A stretch of 56,879 bases of DNA, taken from assembly GCA_003223325.1 (NCBI GenBank), contig QHYS01000005.1, positions 1 to 56,879 of the forward strand, read 5' to 3'. The notes under the pieces were generated by a model. It ran no database searches, had not been told where the DNA came from, and worked only from the letters and a program-made list of their open reading frames with translations. The stretch comes from Acidobacteriota bacterium. Its GTDB lineage: Bacteria > Acidobacteriota > Terriglobia > Acidiferrales > UBA7541. Each line of letters starts with the position of its first letter. Position 1 is the first letter of the stretch. Shown piece after piece: positions 10,716 to 33,207 of this stretch. The translations under genes were made by a program, and so were the position numbers.

Positions 10716-10759
10716 AGCGTCCTCCTTCGCCCTCGGAAGAGCGGACCGAACATATGCCG

Positions 10760-10903
10760 AAGGGACCGGTCTCCTGACTCGCGACGCACAGCTGGTCAGC
10801 ACCTTCCCACCCCGGATGGGCAGTGGTTTATCGCAGACCATAGCAGTCGCTTACAGTTGCGGGGCAGTGGCGGAGTTTCACCGCGCTTCCCGTTCGTCCC
10901 CTC
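10760..10903 (-). ncRNA. Cobalamin riboswitch upstream of the btuB-like receptor
   Basis: On the minus strand the element begins with a P1 arm (GGGGAC near 10900), then the conserved GGTGAAACTCCGCCACTG and CCCCGCAACTGTAAG core. It ends with the B12-box AGTCAGGAGACC (near 10770-10782) and the closing GGTCCC arm at 10761-10767. The order and spacing match the AdoCbl/cobalamin class. The GTG start of the receptor lies about 45 bases downstream and no U-tract terminator is apparent between, which favours control of translation initiation. Confidence 0.95.
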
Positions 10904-10969
10904 AGCGAATTGTGAATCCTTCCTTCTCCCTGTTGAAACTCAATTCCCGTCTGAACACAAATGCCCTGC

Positions 10970-12400
10970 TCAAAAGGATGTTTGACCTGCAAGAGCTTGG
11001 CAGCGTGCCCGTTCCACATTTTTTACGAATGCATCGGCCATTCCAGGGCTGGATAGGAAATGCAAGTGAATGTAGCTTGCCAGGACGTTCTTCATGTGCA
11101 GGCCCTCTGACTCTTCACGACCCGTCAGCGAATTGCGCGCTCTGTAGACGTTTTCGATAGGTCCCGCCTCAATGATCGCGGAACAATGAAAGCTGTGGCC
11201 CCGCGCTTTTTTGCCTGCGCGCCCCAGCAAGCAATCCGACGTAAACGAGACTTCGGTGTAGCCGAAATGGACAAGCCGGTCGGTCATCTGCACGCTCATG
11301 GGCAGGACGCCCGCCATTCGAAACCGGACTCCCTCTTTTGCCACGATCTCTTTAGCCAGATACATCAAGCCCCCGCACTCTGCATAAATCGACAGGCCCT
11401 CTAGGGCAGCTTTTTTTATCGAGGCGAGCAGCGCGCCATTTTCAGTTAGCTGTTTTGCATAAAGCTCCGGATAACCTCCTCCGAAGTAGACGGCGTCAAG
11501 AGCAGTTGGCAAAGAACGATCTTGCAGGGGGCTAAACTCCACGATTTCCGCACCGGCCTCTCGCAAAGCGTCCAAGTTATCGTCATAGTAAAAGCAGAAG
11601 GCTTTATCCCGCGCGACGCCAAGCCGTATCGAGTGGACCGCCCGCGGAGCATCCTGGCCCTCACTTGGCTCGGCGGAAATAGACGTCGTGCATTCCAGAA
11701 GCTTGTCCAGATCTATATTTGTTTCCCCTAATTCAGCCAGCAGCGAAAGCACCGAAGCTGGCAAGACGTTTTCTCCAGCCGTGAAGAGACCCAGGTAGCG
11801 CTCGGGAATGTGGATTCGCTCGTCGCGCGGTAAGTACCCCAAAGGCACAGCATTGGTGCTAGTTGCCAAAGCATCCTTCAACAACTGATAGTGAGCCGGT
11901 CCTCCAACCCCGTTGAAGATCACACCAACGAGTCTCAGCGATGCATCAAAGTTTTCGAACCCATGCACCAAGGCTGCTGCACTCCGACCGATTGAGGATG
12001 CATCGACCACAAGAATCACCGGCAGCCCTAGCCACTTTGCGATTTCAGCGGTGCTACCCGCTTCCGATTTGCTATCCACGCCGTCAAAGAGCCCCATCAT
12101 GCCCTCAACAACGCATATTTCGGCGCCCCTGGCCCCACGAGAAAAAATCTGGCGGTTTGCGTCGGCGGAAAGCATCCAGCCATCGAGGTTTCGCGAGGGG
12201 CGTCCGCAGACTTTGGCATGATGTCCGCCGTCGATGAAGTCTGGGCCGCATTTGAAAGGCTGAACGGTGAGTCCGCGCTTTCGCAGAGCGGCTATCACGG
12301 AAAGCGTGACCGTAGTCTTGCCGACGCCGCTCGCAGGTCCAGCAATAACGAAAGCCTTGTTCAGGACCGGTCCCAGTCGAATGGCGCGATCATTTGCCAT
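10970..12400 (-). CDS. cbiA: Cobyrinic acid a,c-diamide synthase (CbiA/CobB)
   Basis: The enzyme amidates the a and c side chains of the corrin ring with glutamine and ATP. ATG 12400 is preceded by GGGGAG at six bases and gives 476 residues; a TTG at 12421 would add seven. The synthetase domain has the P-loop GPASGVGKTT, the GPDFIDGGHH segment, NLDGWML and EGMMGLFDG. The amidotransferase domain has FGGGYPELYA and the nucleophile in YAECGGLMYL (Cys342 from this start). Its start lies inside the last codons of the upstream cobS::bluB gene (11-base overlap), so translation is likely coupled. It is the last gene of the cobU operon. Confidence 0.96.
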   Translation of the reverse strand: MANDRAIRLGPVLNKAFVIAGPASGVGKTTVTLSVIAALRKRGLTVQPFKCGPDFIDGGHHAKVCGRPSRNLDGWMLSADANRQIFSRGARGAEICVVEGMMGLFDGVDSKSEAGSTAEIAKWLGLPVILVVDASSIGRSAAALVHGFENFDASLRLVGVIFNGVGGPAHYQLLKDALATSTNAVPLGYLPRDERIHIPERYLGLFTAGENVLPASVLSLLAELGETNIDLDKLLECTTSISAEPSEGQDAPRAVHSIRLGVARDKAFCFYYDDNLDALREAGAEIVEFSPLQDRSLPTALDAVYFGGGYPELYAKQLTENGALLASIKKAALEGLSIYAECGGLMYLAKEIVAKEGVRFRMAGVLPMSVQMTDRLVHFGYTEVSFTSDCLLGRAGKKARGHSFHCSAIIEAGPIENVYRARNSLTGREESEGLHMKNVLASYIHLHFLSSPGMADAFVKNVERARCQALAGQTSF

Positions 12401-13808
12401 TCTTTTCTCCCCAGCGCTCAAAAAAGATCAAATCCTCAAGCGGGATCCTTGGCAGCCATCCGGTAATTTCCAGTTCCGGACGCGGAAGAAACTCGCGTAC
12501 ATAGCCCAGACACAAATAAGCGACCGGAATGACGTGCTCTGGAATTTGCAGAAACCGCTTAAGCTGGGCAGGCTCAAAGATACTCACCCATCCAACCCCG
12601 ATGCCTTCACCACGAGCCGCCAGCCAGAGATTCTGGACGGCACAGCAGGTGCTGTAGACATCTGTTTCGCGAATAGTGTTTCGTCCCAAGACGTGCGGTC
12701 CATTTCGTGACGGATCGCACGTGACGCAGAGAGTGATCGGCGCTTCTAGGATGCCTTCGAGCTTCAGCTTCGAGTACAGCTCGCTTTTTTTCCCTTCGAA
12801 AACCGCAGCGGCAGTTGCATTGGCCTGTTCGAATAAATCTTTGACCTGCCTCTTAATGTCTGGGTTGCGAATCACGATGAACGACCACGGCTGCATGAAT
12901 CCCACTGAGCCGGCATGGTGCGCGGAGTCAAGCAGCTTTCGCAGAAGCCGTTGTGATACAGGGTCAGGCAGGAAATGGCCGCGAACATCCCGCCGCTTGT
13001 ATATCGCTTTGTACAGTCCCCGCTTCTCCGTACGCGAAAACTCGCTCAACGCGGATTGTTTTCGTCCATGAATCGCCGTCATGATCGCGATTTCCGTAAT
13101 CTGGTTCGTAGCGCCCAGGCAGTCTCCCGTGATTCCGTCGATTCGACGCCAGTAGTAGAGACCGCTAACGGCCGCGATCATGACTGCAACCAGGGCTGCC
13201 CACAGAGCTTCAGCCTTCAAAGCGACGGCCACAATCGCGAGGGCTAGAATCGTTCCGGCCCCAAGCGATAGAGCCGTGATTCTATGGGCGATCAATTTGC
13301 CTTGCCCAGCCTCGTTGGCGCGAGCCGAGGGCAGAAAAAAGGCCAATGGCAATGTAGTCCAGCGTCCGAGCACCTGTGCTGCAACGAAAAACCCAATGAA
13401 CTTGCCGGGAGCAAGATTCGTCAGGAACACGAAACGCGCCAGCAGCCCCAGCGCGATTGCGATGGTTCCAAAACTTCCGATGTGGCTGTCGCGCATGATG
13501 GCGAGAATCCGTTCCTTCTCCCATCCTCCTCCGAGGCCGTCCGCAGCATCCCCCAGCGCGTCCTCATGAAGTCCTCCGGTTACCGTCACGAGGTACACGA
13601 GGATCAGGACGACGATGACGTCACGGCTTGCGTGGGGCGAAAGCAACCAATACAACGCTGAGCCACCCGCACCAACAAGCAGCCCGATTGCTGGAAAAAA
13701 GACTGCGGATTTTGCGAGCGCGTCCGGCGAATAGCGAACTCCTCGAGACACTGGCAATCTCGTCATGAATTGGACGGCCACGAGAAACGAGTTCGCTGCA
13801 CTTCTCAT
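12390..13808 (-). CDS. Fused cobalamin synthase (CobS) and 5,6-dimethylbenzimidazole synthase (BluB)
   Basis: One uninterrupted 472-residue frame joins two enzymes. Residues 1-247 are CobS, an inner-membrane protein that joins AdoCbi-GDP to alpha-ribazole(-phosphate). It shows PVSRGVRYSP, the Asp-rich GGLHEDALGDAADGLGG (78-94), DSHIGSFG and GDCLGATNQITEI, with several hydrophobic helices. Residues 255-472 are BluB, which cannibalises FMN to make the lower ligand DMB. It shows the RRDVRGHF motif, HHAGSVGFMQPWSFIVI, ITLCVTCDPSRNG and PVAYLCLGYV. The BluB part has its usual length and conserved blocks, so both halves look functional. It overlaps cobT by ATGA-type coupling at its start and cbiA at its end. 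The fusion would place DMB formation on the cytoplasmic face of the membrane beside the enzyme that consumes its activated form. Confidence 0.95.
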   Translation of the reverse strand: MRSAANSFLVAVQFMTRLPVSRGVRYSPDALAKSAVFFPAIGLLVGAGGSALYWLLSPHASRDVIVVLILVYLVTVTGGLHEDALGDAADGLGGGWEKERILAIMRDSHIGSFGTIAIALGLLARFVFLTNLAPGKFIGFFVAAQVLGRWTTLPLAFFLPSARANEAGQGKLIAHRITALSLGAGTILALAIVAVALKAEALWAALVAVMIAAVSGLYYWRRIDGITGDCLGATNQITEIAIMTAIHGRKQSALSEFSRTEKRGLYKAIYKRRDVRGHFLPDPVSQRLLRKLLDSAHHAGSVGFMQPWSFIVIRNPDIKRQVKDLFEQANATAAAVFEGKKSELYSKLKLEGILEAPITLCVTCDPSRNGPHVLGRNTIRETDVYSTCCAVQNLWLAARGEGIGVGWVSIFEPAQLKRFLQIPEHVIPVAYLCLGYVREFLPRPELEITGWLPRIPLEDLIFFERWGEKNGK

Positions 13809-14899
13809 CCGATGGCCTCGCTAACGCCCGCAGAGGAGAACGTCGCCATTTCATTCAGGAGCTTTGCGGCGCTCTCGATCAGTGCCATGCAAAGGGCGGC
13901 GCCAGTTCCTTCGCCAAGCCTCATATTCAAGTCCAGTAGCGGCGCCTGGCTAATAAATTGCAAGAGCGCATCGTGTCCTGGTTCGCTCGACCGATGCGCC
14001 GCAAACAAAAATTGTCTCACGCGCGGCTGAAGAGCGCAGGCAAGGGCTGCCGCAGCCGTCGAGATAAAGCCATCGATGACCGTAGGAATTCGCCGTGTCG
14101 CGGCACCCAGGATCAAGCCCGTCAGTCCCGCAATTTCCAGGCCGCCAACGGTCTGAAGCACTTGCAGTGGATCCGATGGGTCGGGACGATTGACAGCAAT
14201 CGCGCGTTCGATCACTTGAACCTTGTGCTTGAGCCCTGCGTCGTCCAAGCCTGTGCCACGCCCGGTCACATGCGCAACTGATCGGCCCGTCAATATTGCG
14301 GTGATAGCGCTGGCGGCCGTGGTATTTCCGATTCCCATTTCACCGGTTCCAATGAGTGCGCGCTCACCCTCCGCTACATCATTGGCCAACTCGATCCCCA
14401 CTTGAAGCGCGCCGTACATTTCCGCTGCGCTCATCGTCGGTCCACACGTCATATTTCTGGTGCCATGTGCGACTTTCTTCCTCACCAGACCAGGTAGTTC
14501 GCTGGTATCACCTTCGATGCCGATGTCGACGACCGCCACGTCAATCCCAAAGTGGCGGCACAGAACGTTAATCGCCGCCCCTCCGGAAAGGAAATTGAGC
14601 ACCATTTGCCGCGTCACGGCTTTGGGATAAGCGCTGACGCTCTCGTCAGTCACGCCATGGTCCGCCGCAAGCGTAAAAATCACCTTCTTGGAGCAGTCCG
14701 GCCGCAGCTCCTCGCGAATTGTGACGATCCTTGCTGCAACTTCTTCCAGCCGGCCAAGACTCCCCAAGGGCTTCGTCAGACTATTCAGCCGCTGCGTGGC
14801 TCTCCCGTACCAATCCTGCCGAAGCAAAGGCACTGCGGCGATAACTTCGCGCACAGCCGCTTCGACCAGCCCATCTTTCCTAGCTGCTAAGGTCTTCAT
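13805..14899 (-). CDS. cobT: Nicotinate-nucleotide-dimethylbenzimidazole phosphoribosyltransferase (CobT)
   Basis: CobT activates DMB by transferring ribose-phosphate from nicotinate mononucleotide, giving alpha-ribazole phosphate for CobS. ATG 14899 gives 364 residues, close to the family's ~350; a GTG at 14956 just after the cobU stop would add 19. Landmarks are LTKPLGSLGRLEE, FTLAADHGVTDE, GEMGIGNTTAASA, GLEIAGLTGL and the catalytic-Glu segment MRLGEGTGAA near the C-terminus. The stop overlaps the start of cobS::bluB by four bases, so DMB synthesis, activation and assembly are encoded in adjacent coupled frames. Confidence 0.96.
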   Translation of the reverse strand: MKTLAARKDGLVEAAVREVIAAVPLLRQDWYGRATQRLNSLTKPLGSLGRLEEVAARIVTIREELRPDCSKKVIFTLAADHGVTDESVSAYPKAVTRQMVLNFLSGGAAINVLCRHFGIDVAVVDIGIEGDTSELPGLVRKKVAHGTRNMTCGPTMSAAEMYGALQVGIELANDVAEGERALIGTGEMGIGNTTAASAITAILTGRSVAHVTGRGTGLDDAGLKHKVQVIERAIAVNRPDPSDPLQVLQTVGGLEIAGLTGLILGAATRRIPTVIDGFISTAAAALACALQPRVRQFLFAAHRSSEPGHDALLQFISQAPLLDLNMRLGEGTGAALCMALIESAAKLLNEMATFSSAGVSEAIG

Positions 14900-14960
14900 T
14901 TGTATATCTCTCGCGAAAAGCCCATTTGCGGATTCTGTCAATTCGTGCCCTTGCACTTCT

Positions 14961-15506
14961 CTAGCTCATCCTCGAGTCCTTCACGGTCACTGGCAGGCCG
15001 GCTACCATGAGCACAACCCTGTCCGCAATCTGAGCTAACTTCTGATTCATTTGACCCAAAAAGTCGCGATAGATCCGCCCGCTTCGGTAGGCAGGAACGA
15101 CTCCACTTCCCACCTCGTTGGATACTGCGACCACGCAAGCTCTTGACGCCCGAATTGCTTCGCAGACGGCGTCGATGTATCCTTTCGGATTGGTCTTCGA
15201 TTCCTTCCGAGCACCCATAACGTTGGCCACGTAAATCGTGAGGCAATCTATGAGAACTACGTCCGCCTGTTGCGATTCCGAACGAATTATTTTGTGAAGG
15301 GCAAGAGGAGCTTCGACCGTCCTCCACGCGTTCGGCCGCTCACGACGGTGCCGGGCGATTTTTCTTCGCATTTCCGCGTCCGTGCGGCGCCCCGTGGCGA
15401 TAAACGTTACCCGCTCGAAATGGGAAACAAGTTGCTGCGCGTAGTGACTTTTCCCGCTTTGTGCTCCGCCCAGCACAAGTGTTACCGTCTTCTTATCAGC
15501 CTCCAT
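14961..15506 (-). CDS. cobU: Adenosylcobinamide kinase / adenosylcobinamide-phosphate guanylyltransferase (CobU)
   Basis: A bifunctional enzyme that phosphorylates AdoCbi and transfers GMP to it, giving the AdoCbi-GDP used by CobS. The 181-residue length is standard. The P-loop is LVLGGAQSGKSHYA. IARHRRERP carries the His that is guanylated in characterised CobU. DCLTIYVANV and SNEVGSGVVPAYRSGRIYRD are the usual C-terminal signatures. It is the first gene after the second cobalamin riboswitch, with GAGG just upstream of the ATG. Confidence 0.96.
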   Translation of the reverse strand: MEADKKTVTLVLGGAQSGKSHYAQQLVSHFERVTFIATGRRTDAEMRRKIARHRRERPNAWRTVEAPLALHKIIRSESQQADVVLIDCLTIYVANVMGARKESKTNPKGYIDAVCEAIRASRACVVAVSNEVGSGVVPAYRSGRIYRDFLGQMNQKLAQIADRVVLMVAGLPVTVKDSRMS

Positions 15507-15649
15507 CCCTCTTGCTAGCCTCCATTTCCGGCGGCACAGGCGCTTCCATTCGGAAGGGGGAAATTGTAACGGTTAGTCCAACTTCAATTGCGTTGGTGCA
15601 GAGACATCACCGACCGGCTCTCCCTTAGAAGCCGATTCGATTGGCTGTG

Positions 15650-15798
15650 GGTGGTTGGCCGGTCTCCTGACTCGCGCATCGACGAGATCGAGCTGCCTTC
15701 CCGGAAATCCCAGTGGCCTATTTCGCTCGAGCTCTCCGCGCTCACAGTGGCGGGGCCGTGCCGGATTTTCACCGGCTTCCCAATCGCACCAACCGTTG
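15650..15798 (-). ncRNA. Cobalamin riboswitch upstream of the cobU operon
   Basis: On the minus strand: P1 arm GGTTGG (15789-15794), GAAGCCGGTGAAAATCCGGC, then CCCCGCCACTGTGAG, and finally the B12-box AGTCAGGAGACC followed by the closing CCAACC arm near 15652-15658. The order of conserved blocks matches the cobalamin class. About 145 bases separate it from the cobU start, room for an expression platform. A weak CGGCTT/AGCCGG hairpin occurs there, but I see no clear U tract. Confidence 0.95.
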
Positions 15799-15801
15799 CT
15801 C

Positions 15802-15831
15802 GTTATAAGTTATGGGAAACACGAAAGTCAA
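15802..15831 (-). promoter_or_regulatory. Sigma-70-like promoter of the cobU operon
   Basis: On the minus strand TTGACT (15831-15826) and TATAAC (15807-15802) are separated by 18 bases. The riboswitch P1 stem begins about eight bases further on, exactly where a transcript should start, so position and hexamers agree. Confidence 0.72.
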
Positions 15832-16010: not shown

Positions 16011-18300
16011 TTAAGCGATACCAGAGCGACCCACGGCTGGAGGCTTTGCTTCTCGTGCACCGGGAAAGATGTCGTATACATAGTCGTGCGCAGACAGAAC
16101 GACCTGGTTCAAAGTGCCAGCGCCAATCCGTTTCAGAAGTTCTTCGCGCGAGAGATCAAAGATCGCCTCTAAAATCTGCACGCGTTCCTCTCGACTCGCC
16201 TGGCCCACGACGAAGAGCACGCGGGCACTGTGCTGGATGTAGTGTGGGGAAAGCAGTTGCCGCTTCAAGAGGTCCATGATGATCGGTGCCTTGGTGCGAT
16301 CAAAGCGTCCTGGATCGCCACGGCGGTCCAGCTCTGTGAAAAACTGCGCAGTCCACTCATTGTGGAAGTCCCATACCTTCAGGAACAACTCCTTAGTGAA
16401 GGGGGTTCCGGCTTTGACCTCATCGGCGTTCACAGCCGGTACGACGCCGTCCTCGGTGAGTGCTGGCCGTTTTAGATAGCCGTCCTTGGTAATGGCGGCG
16501 TGATGGCGGATTAGAGTCCACAGCCAAGACACGTCGATGCGGTAGGTGGCGAGGTCATTCATGAAGCGAAGCGAAAGTTCATAATCATCTATCGTGGCTG
16601 CAAAGTTGCCGTTGAGGATCTGGAAACCATAATTCGCCGCTCGCGTCCCAAAGTTCTTGCGTAAGCAATTTCTCCGGCGTGTCAACTTTGTCCTTTGTGA
16701 TCACCCAAGGCGTGATCTTGCCATTCGAGTTGAGTAAGCCACGGGACTGCAGGAGCAGTCGTTCCGCTTCAACAAGCCCGCTGGCCACCGTGGGCACAGG
16801 CTTACCTTTCACATCCACGGTTTGTGGCTGCGCGTCGAGAATTGCTTGGAGCTCGTCCACGGACACTCTCAAGGGAGTATTGCCGGCAGCGACGTAGGAC
16901 GGCTCCGGGCTCGCGACCCAACTTTGCCGATAAGCGTCATAAAGTCGGCCCTGGATCCTGCCCGAAAGAATCTCTTCCAGGGTCGGCCGCTCCCCGGAGT
17001 GCACCCGAGCGTCGGGCACAAACATCAACCCCAGAAGGCGCTCGCGCAATTTATCAATGGCCATGGCTCGCAGCGCCAACGGATTGTACTTAGAACGGCC
17101 ATAAGGATCGGTAGGCTGATAAATCATTACTGCCGCCATCCCGCCGATCGGCGCGCCTTGAGTAAGTACACCGTTTTTCATTCCGGCCATCAGCATCACC
17201 AGCCCATTGTATTTCTGGTAGGCGATCATGTTTGGAGAGGCCATGGTGATCGACTGGGGATCGGGGAACACGCCTTGCGGTTCGTCTTTCCACATCTCAA
17301 TAAGGCTCGCCAAGTAGTCCCATCGGCCGACATTGGTTCCGAGAAGACGCCGTCGTAAGACCCAGGCGATGGCAGTCAAGAACCTACCGGCATTACCCTC
17401 CTCATAGAGGACCTTGATCTTGATGGTTCCAAGCTCCACGCCGATCAATTTTTCCAGAGACGCCAATAGCTTCTCTACAATTAGAGCTTCCTGAGGTGTC
17501 TGAATCTTGGGAATGTAGTAGTAGACACCTGTGCCGAGATGCATAAGGGCGTCGAAACTGTTCAGTGCCCAGACCACCGTGATGGGAACGAAAGCAGGGA
17601 CAGGCAGGCCGTCAACGGTTATGTGGTCATACTGAACATGAATACCAGGCGGCCGCGCGAACCTCGTCGGCCACTGCCCGGGGGACTTAGTAATCCGATA
17701 GCTGCGCCGTTTTCCTTTCTTGGAAACCTCATAAGCGCGCTCAGCCCAGCGGCCTTCAAAAATCTCCTTGGCATTCTGCATGGCCGCAAAAACACCTACA
17801 GGCTGACTTGCTGGCGTGCCATCGGGCTGAAAATGTGGAGGCGACGCGTCTTCGAAGTCGGGCATGTTCATCGGTGCCGGGCTATTCAACGCGTTGAAAG
17901 CCATATCGAGCGGATGCCATGGCCCCGTCAGCTCCAAACCCGGATTGCCCAACGGATGGGCATCCTTGGGGATGGGCGCTTCGTCATTCAGCCGCCAGCT
18001 CCACTCGCTCTCTCGTTTGAGGTAATTATCAATCGTGCCCTGGACGATCTGTCGGAAGGTCCAAAACTTCTCGGTCACAGGATCCTCAAACTTTTCCTCC
18101 CAGCTTGGCCAGGCATACTTTTTTCGAACTTGCACCGGGGACTGAAGGAGCGCGCGGCGGGCGGCCAATGCCTCCGAGATCAGCGGACGCAACTCTCGCG
18201 TCAGCGTGTTGATCGTCTGTTCGACGTCAATGGTGCGGCCATTGACTTTTTTGCTTCCGAAGATTTCGGGAAATCTTTGCAGGATGTCGTCACGGATCAC
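16011..18300 (-). pseudogene. Malate synthase, interrupted by a single frameshift
   Basis: Malate synthase condenses glyoxylate and acetyl-CoA in the glyoxylate shunt. From GTG 18300 the first frame runs 571 residues with family landmarks YYYIPKIQTPQEAL, IKIKVLYEEGNAGRF, LGTNVGRWDYLASLIE, ITMASPNMIAYQKY and GAPIGGMAAVMIY. Homologous sequence continues in a second frame from about 16640 (ANYGFQILNGNFAATIDD onward) to 16011. One extra base in the GCGGCG run near 16635-16642 would explain it: removing it gives a continuous ~760-residue protein. All else looks intact, so the change is either recent or a sequencing error. No isocitrate lyase gene is nearby. Confidence 0.82.
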
Positions 18301-18420: not shown

Positions 18421-18672
18421 TTAGCGACACTTTTGGATTTTGGATTGGGATTGTTGGTGACGCTGCAGGAACTCCAGCGGCGTGGAATAGTCCAGTGCTT
18501 GATGCAGACGAATGGTGTTATGGGTGTGCTCCCAAACCGGCGGCTGACGATTCACCTCCAGGAGGCTACAGTGATGCGGTGTGACCTCGTAGAATTCCTC
18601 GTTGTGGGTGCGGTGGGCACGCTCGACATGCCCATTGAGTTTGGGCGACCGCGGAGGGAGGACTGGATCAAG
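18421..18672 (-). mobile_element. IS481-type transposase remnant (C-terminal rve core only)
   Basis: Reading the minus strand in one frame gives about 83 codons ending at TAA 18423-18421, without a start codon. They contain PKLNGHVERAHRTHNEEFYE, HNTIRLHQALDYSTPLEFLQ and a Gln/Ser-rich tail. This is the C-terminal end of an IS481-like DDE transposase, including the region around the catalytic Glu (VERAHRTHNEEF). Everything upstream is missing, so the piece is dead. Its left end joins directly to broken SRPBCC sequence. Confidence 0.8.
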
Positions 18673-18835
18673 CTGACGGCCACCGGAGGCGTGATAGATC
18701 CGCGAACGAGGCGAAACGGTCTATTTTCGGTGGAAGATTATTCGGCGGACGTCTGGCCGGAATATTGATGGCATCGAAGGCTTCTTCTGGAGTTTTGTCG
18801 ACGGAAATGGCAGCGGTGAAATCTTGATTTTTCAT
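18668..18835 (-). pseudogene. Second SRPBCC/Aha1-like gene, start and first ~22 codons only
   Basis: ATG 18835 has GAGGAG seven bases upstream and starts MKNQDFTAAISVDKTPEEAF, a close paralogue of the N-terminus of the neighbouring gene. After DAIN (about 18770) homology stops and the frame runs through foreign sequence next to the IS481 remnant. It is probably truncated by the insertion or by later deletion. Confidence 0.7.
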
Positions 18836-19211
18836 GACTCGCTCCTCTATCGCTTCTTTCCCCCAAAAAGCGGGCGGCGGCATTATCGTGCTTGAAGCGG
18901 ACCTCGGTTTTGTCGTCTTTCTTAGCAATCTCTAAGACGATGTCCGTGCCTTTCCACTCGCTCTTGTCTTTCACAACAAAGCCAAGGTAGCCGTCTACCA
19001 CGTGCCAAACGACTTTCTTGCCGGGAATGAATTCTGTTATCTTTTGTTTGGAACGGTGCACGTCTTGGACACGGTATGTGAACTCGGCACCGAGTTTGTT
19101 GGTATCGCCCTGGATTTCTCCCCACCATGCCCGGACGTTGTTGATCGCATTGAAGACTTCTTCAGGCGTTTGGTCTACCGTAAAAGAAGTCGTGTAACCT
19201 TCAGTCTTCAT
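18738..19211 (-). pseudogene. SRPBCC (Aha1/START-like) domain protein, 3'-truncated
   Basis: From ATG 19211 the first ~108 residues are a normal small SRPBCC protein: TVDQTPEEVFNAINNVRAWW, the GAEFTYRVQDVHRSKQKITE block and VVWHVVDGYLGFV to TEVRFKH. These proteins form a hydrophobic-pocket fold; their cellular role is generally unknown. After KH, where the family continues for about 40 residues, the frame runs into unrelated sequence overlapping the start of a second, paralogous copy. The simplest reading is a tandem pair in which the end of copy one was deleted. Confidence 0.75.
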
Positions 19212-20880: not shown

Positions 20881-23800
20881 ATGAGCAGAGTGTTCGGAGG
20901 TGCTCGTTGGGGCTCTCGCATTGCGGTGTTCGCCTTGGGGCTGCTCGTGTCGGTGGTGGCAGTTCCGGTTTTCGCGCAGTTGCCAACCGCAACAATTCTG
21001 GGAACCGTGAAGGACTCTTCGGACGCCCTGGTCCCGGGTGCGAGCGTTACGGCCCAGAACTCGGAGACGGGCGCATCGCGCTCCATCTCGACCGATGAGA
21101 CCGGCGCGTATCGTTTGGCCGCACTGCCTGTGGGTCACTATGACATGAGAGTTGAGAGCTCCGGCTTCAAGCCAACCACGCAGAAAGGGCTGGTTCTCGA
21201 CGTTGGCGAGGAAGCGGTCTTGAACTTTACGCTCGAGGTGGGGAGCACTTTGCAGGAAGTGGTGGTCACCGGCGAAGCTCCGCTCGTAAACACGACCACA
21301 GCCTCGCTTGGCGGCCTAGTGAGCGAAAAGAAAATTGTTGACCTCCCGCTGAATGGCCGCAACTTCCTGGACTTGGTCCTGCTCCAGCCGGGCGTTTCCC
21401 AAGACGTGGTGGTGGTCCACCTTGGCGGGGGCGGCGAGGGCACCACCTATAGCAGCAACGGCGCGCCCATCATCTCCAACAACTTCCTGCTGGACGGGAC
21501 GCCCACGCAGAACGTTCTCGGCTACAACGGCGCCTCGGCCGTGGGCACCACGCTCGGGCTGGACGGTATCCGCGAATACAAGGTCATCACCAACGCTTTC
21601 AGCGCCGAGTACGGCATGAACATGGGCAGCCAAATGACCATTGTCAGCAAGGGCGGAACCAATCAGTTTCACGGCGATGTGTTCGAGTACCTGCGGAACC
21701 GCGTCCTGGACGCCAGGAACTTCTTCGATACCTCCTACGGGCAGTGCTTGGCCTCCAATTCGGGCAACTGCAAGCGAAACCCTCCCTATGAGCGCAATAA
21801 CTTTGGCGGCGCTTTCGGAGGACCGATCCGGAAAGACAAGACGTTTTTCTGGGGTGTTTACGAAGGTTTGCGGCAAGCACCAAGAGCATTCCCGCCGCGT
21901 GCGTGGCCAACGGGACGCGCACGATCGCTCAGGGCAACCCCAACGGTGTAGACTACACGGTGACGCCCGCCGATTGCGGGATTCCCGGTGGGATAAGCGC
22001 TAACATAAAAGTGGACCCAGCCATACGGCCCCTGCTCGCGCTCTACGACCCGGCGGACTCCAACTACACACAGAACTCACATGAGTCGGTGAACTACGGC
22101 CAGATGCGCGTGGACCAAAACTTCGGCAAGGATGACAGCGTCTTCGCGCGCTACACGATTGAGGACGCAATCGATTTTGTCCCAGGGCCAGGTTTCGGCG
22201 CCAGCGTGTACGGCTTCAAGGAGTTCCAGAACTCCGAGCCCAGCCGCAGCCAGTTCATCACCCTTTCCGAAAGCCACATCTTTTCGCCCGCGCTTCTGAA
22301 TACGGCGCGGATCTCCTTTAGCCGGACAAACATCCTGGCAAATCTCGTTGCCAATCCTTCTCAGACCGGGCAGGAAGTCGTTGGCCCGAATGTGTCGTTC
22401 CTCAATGGGGAACCCATCGGCTTGATCGTCATCGGAAGCAACGGCAGCGGGAGTTCGACATTCACAACGATGGGGCCGGACTTCGCCGCTCCCAACTATC
22501 ACTTGCAGAATTATTGGAGCCTGAGCGAGGACCTTTACTATACGAGGGGCAAGCACGCGCTGAAATTCGGCTTCCTGGGCAACCGCATTCAGTTGATTAC
22601 CGGTGAGACAGTGTGGGCCCGCGGCCGCGTGAATTTTCTGGGAGGACTTCCTGCCTTTCTACGAAATCAGCCCTCGCAGGAACTCGCCGCGATCCCCGAC
22701 GGAGTTCCGCGCCGCCATTTCCGGTACGAAACCTACGGGTTTTATGGGCAAGACGACTGGCGCGCGACTTCGCGCCTGACGCTGAACCTCGGTCTGCGGT
22801 ACGAATTCAACACGACCCCGCTTGAATCCCAGGGGCTTCAGACTACCTTGTTGAACCCCGGTGCTCAAGTTGACGTCGTTGGTGGCCCCGGTTGGACCAA
22901 TCCCCTCACGACGGAACCCTATCTGCGAAACCCGTCGCTCAAAAACTTCAGTCCTCGGGTCGGCTTCGCTTTTGACCCGACGGGAAGTGGGAAAACAGCA
23001 CTTCGTGGCGCCTACGGGATTTACTACGATATTGCTACCATCGGCTCGACCACGTTCGGATACGTTGTGGGCGATCCGCCATATCGCTCGATCAACGCCG
23101 TTTTTCCAGCGACGCCGCCGGCTCCACCGCTAGTGTGGGCGCCGGGATTCATCTCGGCCAGCCCCGGTCCCTATCAGCCTCCCTTCCCCTTCCCTGGGGC
23201 GACCAATACCTTTCAGGGATTTTCCCCTCCGGCCCCCCTCAATCTGACCCAGCATGACATTCGCCAGCCGTATCTGATGCAATGGAACTTCTCTGTCGAT
23301 CGGCAGTTGCCCGGCGATATTGGCCTGACGGTGTCGTATGTGGGCACGCGAGGCCTGCACCTCTGGGGGCAAGGGGACGCCAATCCCTGTATGCCGACAC
23401 ATATCGTCAACGGGGTTCCCGACTGGTCGAATACGCTGGGCCCGCGAAGTGCCCTGTTCCCGCGTGGTACGCCCGTGGCCTGCCCGTCGACGAACTTAGC
23501 CTTTCCGTCGGGGCATATTTGCACCGTCATCCTCAACAACGGGGTCACTCGGTTCATCCTGAGCGGACGGAACAATTGCAACTTTGGCAACGACAATGCG
23601 GTCCAAACCACGTCTGCGTCCTGGTACAACGGCCTCCAGCTAAGCCTGCAGAAAAGGCTGTCACACGGCCTGGAATTCCAGAGCGCATACACTTACTCGA
23701 AAAACCTCGACCTCCCACAGGGGCGACTTTTCATCGACGGCGAGGTTGCCACGCCCCAGGCGGATCGGTACGTCGACAGGGGCAGGTCCGTCTACAACGC

Positions 23801-24467
23801 CACTCACAACTGGCGGTTTAATACCCTTTACACCTTCCCCACTCGGAACTTCCAGGGTTTTGCATCCAAGCTGGTGAACGGCTGGTCGATGCAGAGTATC
23901 ATTGCCTTACAGAGCGGATTTGCGTTTTCCCCCGCCGCTCCCGGCGGAGTCGTTCTGGCCCCGGGTAGTGCCGCAGTTGACGTGTCGCTCAACACGAACA
24001 CCAATATCAACGGCGCCTACGAACGCCCTGAATATGTCACCTCCGCCAACATAGGCGATGTGACCACCTGCGTGGCCAACGGCCTTACTCCTTCGGGTCG
24101 GCTGTGCAACCCTAATGCCGTCGTCTACAATCCCGCCACGGTGATTACGGGTAATCCCAACCAATGGTACAACCCGAACATGTTCACCGCGCCCGTTCCG
24201 GGTTTCCTGGGCAATGTGGGAAGAGGGATTCTGACTGGGCCCGGCCTCTTCAATGTAGACTTCTCCGTGCACAAGGACACCAAGCTCGGGTTTCTGGGTG
24301 AAGCCAGGAATCTGCAATTCCGGGCGGAATTTTTCAACATCCTGAACCGCGCGAACTTCGTCAATAACCCACCCAACGGCAACGCGATCGTTGGCCCGGG
24401 TGCGGGCGCGCTTACGCTGGCCAGGGAGGGACGGGACGTTCAGTTAGCGCTGAAGATGAGCTTCTAA
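20881..24467 (+). pseudogene. Oar-like TonB-dependent receptor with carboxypeptidase-regulatory domain, one frameshift
   Basis: A large outer-membrane protein of a family much expanded in Acidobacteriota, thought to import polymers or peptides. ATG 20881 follows AGGAG by eight bases. A signal peptide ends VPVFAQ. The regulatory sandwich (ATILGTVKDSSDALVPGASV to VESSGF) is followed by a plug with VDLPLNGRNFLDLVLLQPGV and FSAEYGMNMGSQ, then EYLRNRVLDARNFF and NNFGGAFGGPI. The frame breaks near 21876-21882, just after GVYEGLRQ; the correct continuation (TKSIPAACVANGTRT) lies in the frame that runs to 24467. The barrel then continues undamaged to the usual end LALKMSF. Joined length is about 1,195 residues. 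A small deletion or a sequencing error would explain the break. Confidence 0.86.
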
Positions 24468-32292: not shown

Positions 32293-33207
32293 CGGCTCGC
32301 CCCGGTTATAATAGTCGGACCTCCCATCGCTTGTGATCTGCTCGCACCAGCGTATGCCGAGTCGACCCTGGTCGATCGGGTTGACGAGTGTTCTCCTTGA
32401 TCAGCGGACTTCCCTCCTCACTCTCCGCAGACAGTTTCCGAGGTCTCCCGGTTCTCGTGCATGAGGTTCTAGGCGTGTCTGGGGTCTACGACTACGCAGG
32501 ACTGACCGTGCGCTCGCGTTATCGCTCAGGGTCATGTTGCCTTCCGCACACCCTATGGCGTCGGCGTCCTGATTGCAGGTTTTCGAAGCTCGATACCCGG
32601 CCCGCCTATACCCCTGTTTACGCTTCACTGTGCACCTCGCGGTGCCCAGCGCAAAACTCGGGGCCGAGTGGATTGCTGATCCTTTCTCGTAAACTCACAT
32701 TCTCTACTTCATGCCGGTTTATCCCGGCGCACGGGGTGCTCCTTTCCCTAAAGATTGAGGCCAACGCTGGAAACGTACTCCAAAAGGGGCGCCCTTTTAT
32801 ATTGCGTCGTGTCGACTGCGATTGCCCCGCAGAGACTCGATTCTCCCCCGGGAGACGTTGGACCCTGAATTCGCCAATGGCGTGTGTTTTAAGCGAAGTC
32901 AATGTAAAAATGGCGTGTCTTGTCTCGCTGGTGTGCCTATCCACGTGCACGTGAAATAACTAAGGCATGAGTCTTCAAGGCATTGGAGTAACTGCACGCA
33001 CGTTCCTATTTGGCAATCGATTTGCCAGGGACACCGTGTCTCACGATCAGAAGTTGTAACACGCAGCAAATTTCGATTTGCTTTTCAGTAGTTCTATCCT
33101 ACTGACCCAGCCCCGCCGCGCCACGTCAGAGTACGACGTGGTGCTGTTCATCGTCTCAAAGAATTTCGGGGTTGTGAGAAGGACTACAGCCCACAAGCGG
33201 AGCAAGG
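32293..33207. other. Long intergenic region with an open but unrecognised frame
   Basis: A 188-codon frame (32388-32954, plus) is open, but its composition is Ser/Arg/Cys-rich, no ribosome binding site precedes it and I know no protein like it. Its minus strand is also partly open. It could be the complement of a structured RNA or an old mobile element. The remaining bases hold nothing I can identify. Confidence 0.35.

Follow-up and report, generated by a model that had tools for sequence, protein, structure and literature searches.

A 23-bp deletion at the cobS/bluB junction joins CobS and BluB in one open frame in an assembled Acidobacteriota genome

When CobS and BluB, two proteins of cobamide nucleotide-loop assembly, are read as one polypeptide in an assembled genome, is this an evolved bifunctional enzyme or the result of an accident at a gene boundary? 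Such a frame occurs in a 56,879-nucleotide Acidobacteriota sequence, analyzed here as a whole and called the window. The first-pass annotation of the window proposed that the fusion tethers the lower-ligand pathway at the membrane and favors 5,6-dimethylbenzimidazole (DMB) over other bases. We compared the fused gene with its relatives, its operon, and the published topology of CobS.

The fused frame and its operon

The frame runs from ATG to TGA through 472 codons without an internal stop in this assembly (Table 1), so the first-pass annotation was right to place CobS and then BluB in a single intact frame. The CobS half matches PF02654 over residues 11–243, covering profile positions 1–206 of 207, that is, the full-length profile (166.4 bits against a cutoff of 23.2, E = 1e-48), and it keeps both CobS motifs, HxDxxxDxxD and GxxGDxxG. 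It fails to reach any of the NCBIfam equivalog cutoffs for CobS (TIGR00317, 107.4 against 110; NF001277, 195.6 against 273), a shortfall that may be clade-wide. Residues 257–459 of the BluB half reach 256 bits with TIGR02476, above its equivalog cutoff of 150. Asp274 and Ser409 align with Asp32 and Ser167 of Sinorhizobium meliloti BluB, which we take to be active-site residues of that enzyme. Residues 253–468 align with the S. meliloti protein over its full length (PDB 2isj), although the latter is soluble and stands alone, with no CobS domain. A chance open frame was ruled out, as both domains are highly significant in one frame. A further copy elsewhere was also ruled out: the fused gene is the sole match for CobS and for BluB in the 6.1-Mb, 98%-complete assembly of 377 contigs.

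Table 1. Features of the fused gene and its surroundings (positions in the window), with comparable loci in other genomes.
Feature	Position	Strand	Basis
cobS::bluB single frame, 472 codons	12390..13808	−	ORF and domain matches
CobS part, residues 1–242	13083..13808	−	PF02654 (residues 11–243) and sister alignment
BluB part, residues 243–472 and stop, beginning at ancestral bluB ATG	12390..13082	−	TIGR02476 (residues 257–459) and alignment
BluB Asp274, aligned with S. meliloti BluB Asp32	12987..12989	−	alignment to 2isj
BluB Ser409, aligned with S. meliloti BluB Ser167	12582..12584	−	alignment to 2isj
CobS cytoplasmic loop 2 motif HxDxxxDxxD, residues 81–90, intact	13539..13568	−	alignment; motif per PMC8092220
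CobS loop 6 motif GxxGDxxG, residues 225–232, intact	13113..13136	−	alignment
Codon 224, Asp, directly before GxxGDxxG	13137..13139	−	Gly in 27/27 other CobS sequences checked
Junction at the 23-bp deletion seen against G003 and G001; ttacttgatgggggctgtcctgc absent	13082..13083	−	sister alignments
Original bluB ATG as in-frame codon 243; candidate internal start, G-rich SD-like stretch gone	13080..13082	−	alignment, anti-SD pairing
cobT (DMB phosphoribosyltransferase), ATGA overlap with cobS (13805–13808)	13805..14956	−	ORF and domain matches
cobU (cobinamide kinase/guanylyltransferase)	14961..15506	−	domain matches
Cobalamin riboswitch upstream of cobU	15640..15808	−	RF00174, 102.4 bits
cobB/cbiA (a,c-diamide synthase), overlaps bluB 3′ end	10970..12421	−	ORF and domain matches
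Second cobalamin riboswitch, preceding TonB receptor gene	10747–10936	−	RNA family match
Same-frame cobS-stop-bluB loci, one alphaproteobacterial family	L149, L150, L151, L165, L168, L173, L174		

On the minus strand, the order is riboswitch, cobU, cobT, the fused gene, cobB, the second riboswitch, a TonB receptor gene, and cobQ. The longest open frame of the receptor gene (start 10841) begins inside the second riboswitch, so its true start must lie further downstream. As previously annotated, cobT adjoins the fused gene and is translationally coupled to it, lying directly before it with an ATGA overlap. The same annotation took CobS for the last assembly step of B12; it is the penultimate one, with CobC coming after (PMC8092220). 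No CbiB (PF03186) was found in the four genomes of the genus (G000–G003), three of which have late B12 genes, and the source genome yielded no match to CbiC (PF02570). The missing CbiB suggests either precursor salvage in the genus or a CbiB that escapes recognition. The presence of cobU, cobT, cobS, and bluB without CbiB and CbiC fits the salvage of corrinoid precursors combined with home-made DMB, bearing in mind that there are also cobB and cobQ genes and that the genomes are incomplete.

Other features of the window include a malate-synthase-like gene (16011–18300, minus strand) that occupies two overlapping frames, with a frameshift near 16640 that is either an error or the mark of a pseudogene, and a gene for a large TonB/Oar-like outer-membrane protein (20881–24467, plus strand) that is split by an apparent one-base shift near 21875. 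At 18600–19211 (minus strand), two AHSA1-like gene remnants merge in what looks like a degraded tandem pair. A Group II intron RNA lies at 32482–32697 (minus strand; RF02005, 171.6 bits).

The junction in relatives and the distribution of the gene pair

In both congeneric genomes that carry them (G003 and G001), cobS and bluB are two genes, each in its own frame; CobS ends in ...TEIAIYL(M/I)G(A/V)VLP, and the TGA of cobS overlaps the ATG of bluB (ATGA). The sister pair (QHYQ01000180.1 and QHYR01000036.1) has the same genes, order, and operon and a BluB that is 87–94% identical to that of the window, but it encodes two proteins and retains the CobS C-terminus and the bluB start region. Between G003 and the window, identity reaches 94% for BluB and 90% for CobS. 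Two more distant Acidobacteriota, L033 (72%) and L034 (70%), also have separate genes, with stop/start overlaps of GTGA and ATGA. Since the genes are separate in all four, we take separate cobS and bluB to be the ancestral state.

Against both sisters, the window shows one 23-bp deletion, in the identical place and exactly at the cobS/bluB junction, across which it reads GAAATCGCGATCATGACGGCGATTC. The deletion takes out the codons for YLMGAVLP (the last eight of cobS, residues 243–250), the cobS stop, and the G-rich, ribosome-binding-like stretch of bluB. It also moves bluB into the frame of cobS, with the bluB ATG surviving as codon 243. After residue 242, where the last helix of CobS is cut, the fusion reads on as MTAIHGRKQSALSEF. 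The CobS part had been described as complete (residues 1–247) and followed by BluB from 255 to 472. The identity of BluB stands, but the junction lies at 242/243, at the original Met of BluB, and CobS has lost its last eight codons and stop relative to the sister genomes. The earlier observation was thus correct in outline and wrong on one important detail, the completeness of CobS.

The first-pass annotation had asked for CobS/BluB architectures to be listed across genomes. We ran a profile spanning CobS and BluB on 396 Acidobacteriota genomes, 398 genomes from the phylum of G453 (that of an Azoarcus locus), 301 from the phylum of G454 (that of a Chloroflexi locus), and 398 from the phylum of G455 (that of a Peribacillus locus), and a further survey covered 295 genomes from the family of G617. 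Adjacent pairs recurred in the approximately 1,800 genomes sampled from these groups, but no other uninterrupted CobS-BluB frame was found, and CobS-BluB as a conserved architecture was ruled out within this sample. In one alphaproteobacterial family, in-frame matches from seven genomes were rejected as fusions, as cobS and bluB share a frame there but are separated by one stop (TAG or TGA); none of the 295 genomes from the family of G617 has a fused CobS-BluB. The arrangement in the seven genomes resembles that of a Bradyrhizobium plasmid, and pairs of this type (NZ_CP136627.1; G617, G823, G569) have bluB directly after cobS, as in the window, but are unfused and belong to an independent, distant lineage. 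A single base change would fuse cobS and bluB at any of the seven loci (Table 1). The gene pair recurs; the fusion does not.

An open-access literature search found no described CobS-BluB protein, in keeping with the first-pass annotation, which knew of no characterized one. The closest parallel is the BluB/CobT2 fusion enzyme of Propionibacterium freudenreichii, characterized as active (PMC4657239), in which BluB is likewise in frame with another enzyme of lower-ligand assembly and replaces a stand-alone BluB. There, however, the partner CobT is the next enzyme of the pathway and is soluble, and the type is widespread in Actinobacteria; in the window, CobT is encoded by a separate gene. We also noted a BluB-CobT fusion in Chloroflexi (L067, 2707–4752) and the opposite order, CobT-BluB, in Bacillota (L072, 1792–3690).

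Our preferred explanation, held with moderate confidence, is that a recent, species-level deletion of 23 bp accidentally fused the coupled neighbors cobS and bluB in a riboswitch-controlled B12 operon, with an effect that is most likely near neutral or mildly harmful.

Alternative origins and the state of the two halves

We weighed the possibility that the organism has separate cobS and bluB genes and that the 23 bp dropped out when this metagenome-assembled genome was assembled or polished. The fusion is seen in only one genome, in 377 contigs, both congeners with the genes retain the 23 bp, and two more genes of the window, those broken near 16640 and 21875, are frameshifted. Nevertheless, those shifts look like one- or two-base changes, which are of a different kind, and a 23-bp gap with no microhomology or flanking repeat at its breakpoints is atypical for a sequencing error or a k-mer collapse. 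Moreover, when the operon was aligned with that of G003, the deletion was the only frame-changing indel clearly within coding sequence, and the remaining genes showed no clear frame break. We regard an artefact as unlikely.

A second alternative accepts the deletion and sees in it a decaying locus, in which cobamide synthase activity is reduced or lost through the deletion and Asp224 while the cell uses imported complete cobamides. The lost residues belong to the predicted terminal helix of the protein, position 224 is Gly rather than Asp in the 27 other CobS sequences checked, and the CobS half falls under the NCBIfam cutoffs. The operon includes a TonB receptor gene with its own riboswitch, and CbiB and CbiC went undetected. 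On the other hand, the catalytic motifs are intact, the reading frame is still open, and CbiB is likewise undetected in sisters with an intact cobS. Relative to G003, cobS has a dN/dS of 0.13 and bluB one of 0.10, rates that mostly reflect the time before the fusion. The branch leading to the window carries 28 nonsynonymous and 51 synonymous changes, against 10 and 34, a non-significant excess (p = 0.16). Judged by these substitutions, both halves are under purifying selection, an estimate that covers mostly pre-fusion time. Decay of the locus thus seems to us unlikely as well, although Asp224 and the lost end of the last helix suggest that the CobS half may be impaired.

If the deletion is real, BluB would be expected mainly as part of the fusion in this genome. 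The ancestral ATG is still in frame, so internal initiation at codon 243 could instead supply most BluB as a free protein, a possibility compatible with the other readings. However, the G-rich SD-like stretch is gone: predicted anti-SD pairing upstream of bluB is −8.4, −7.9, −9.9, and −6.5 kcal/mol in four relatives and −3.5 kcal/mol in the window, near the mean of −3.0 for random positions in the operon. The stop required for termination-coupled restart was also lost, and internal initiation as the main source of BluB appears distinctly unlikely.

Membrane topology and the proposed tether

CobS of Escherichia coli has been measured as N-in/C-out (PMC4604451), and in S. enterica CobS the catalytic loops 2, 4, and 6 are cytoplasmic, with the GxxGDxxG motif of loop 6 lying just before the C-terminal segment (PMC8092220). 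Our model of an intact sister CobS (mean pLDDT 78) agrees with the published topology and puts the last helix at residues 228–248, and a hydrophobic tail follows the last conserved acidic position in all the CobS sequences with a true C-terminus that we read. With residues 243–250 deleted, the fused protein lacks a complete last transmembrane helix, the one that ends outside in E. coli CobS. The AlphaFold model of the whole fusion has a pLDDT of 40, too low for interpretation, and a profile search found no solved CobS structure.

With the E. coli topology, a partner attached to an intact CobS C-terminus would lie out of the cytoplasm, away from FMNH2 and CobT. A shortened helix that still crosses the membrane would leave BluB misplaced, whereas one that no longer crosses would leave BluB cytosolic at the price of one CobS membrane segment. 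The tether idea requires the truncated end of the helix to stay inside. A working bifunctional CobS-BluB, in which the truncated last helix turns the C-terminus to the cytoplasm and DMB is made at the membrane near CobS, is in our judgment improbable; if true, it would be a CobS::BluB protein without precedent and an example of membrane topology altered in nature by a 23-bp deletion.

The stronger claim of the first-pass annotation, a bifunctional enzyme selected to tether the synthesis of DMB to membrane-bound CobS and to favor this base, can draw on the intact frame and active-site residues, on the channeling of DMB that a BluB fusion can achieve in Propionibacterium (PMC4657239), and on the proposal that nucleotide-loop assembly takes place in a membrane complex (PMC8092220), but we consider it very improbable, as the fusion is conserved in no relative, its partners are not consecutive in the pathway (CobT acts between BluB and CobS), CobS of E. 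coli has its C-terminus outside (PMC4604451), and the event cost part of the last CobS helix. Nothing shows selection for the fusion: neither congener with the two genes has it, nor does any other genome sampled. The earlier interpretation is unsupported beyond the domain names; there is no evidence for an evolved channeling device, and the fusion looks like a recent accident in one species.

Under our preferred explanation, an accidental deletion, the loss of the cobS stop would join two translationally coupled genes in one frame, and most BluB would now arise as the C-terminal domain of a joint CobS-BluB polypeptide. Shortened and now positively charged, the end of the last CobS helix (IAI-MTAIHGRK) would hold this domain in the cytoplasm, where it could make DMB from FMNH2. 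CobT would then turn DMB into alpha-ribazole phosphate, and the CobS half would join the latter to AdoCbi-GDP, probably in a corrinoid-salvaging genome. Any benefit from tethering would be incidental, and the fusion is most likely not a selected device.

The fused frame carries a warning for annotation: such a frame, seen in a single assembled genome, is no evidence for an evolved bifunctional enzyme. If real, it is a gene fusion caught near its origin, with the ancestral overlapping pair kept in the sisters and the exact deletion known. It would also allow two ideas to be tested cleanly, the need of CobS for its last helix and the membrane complex proposed for nucleotide-loop assembly.
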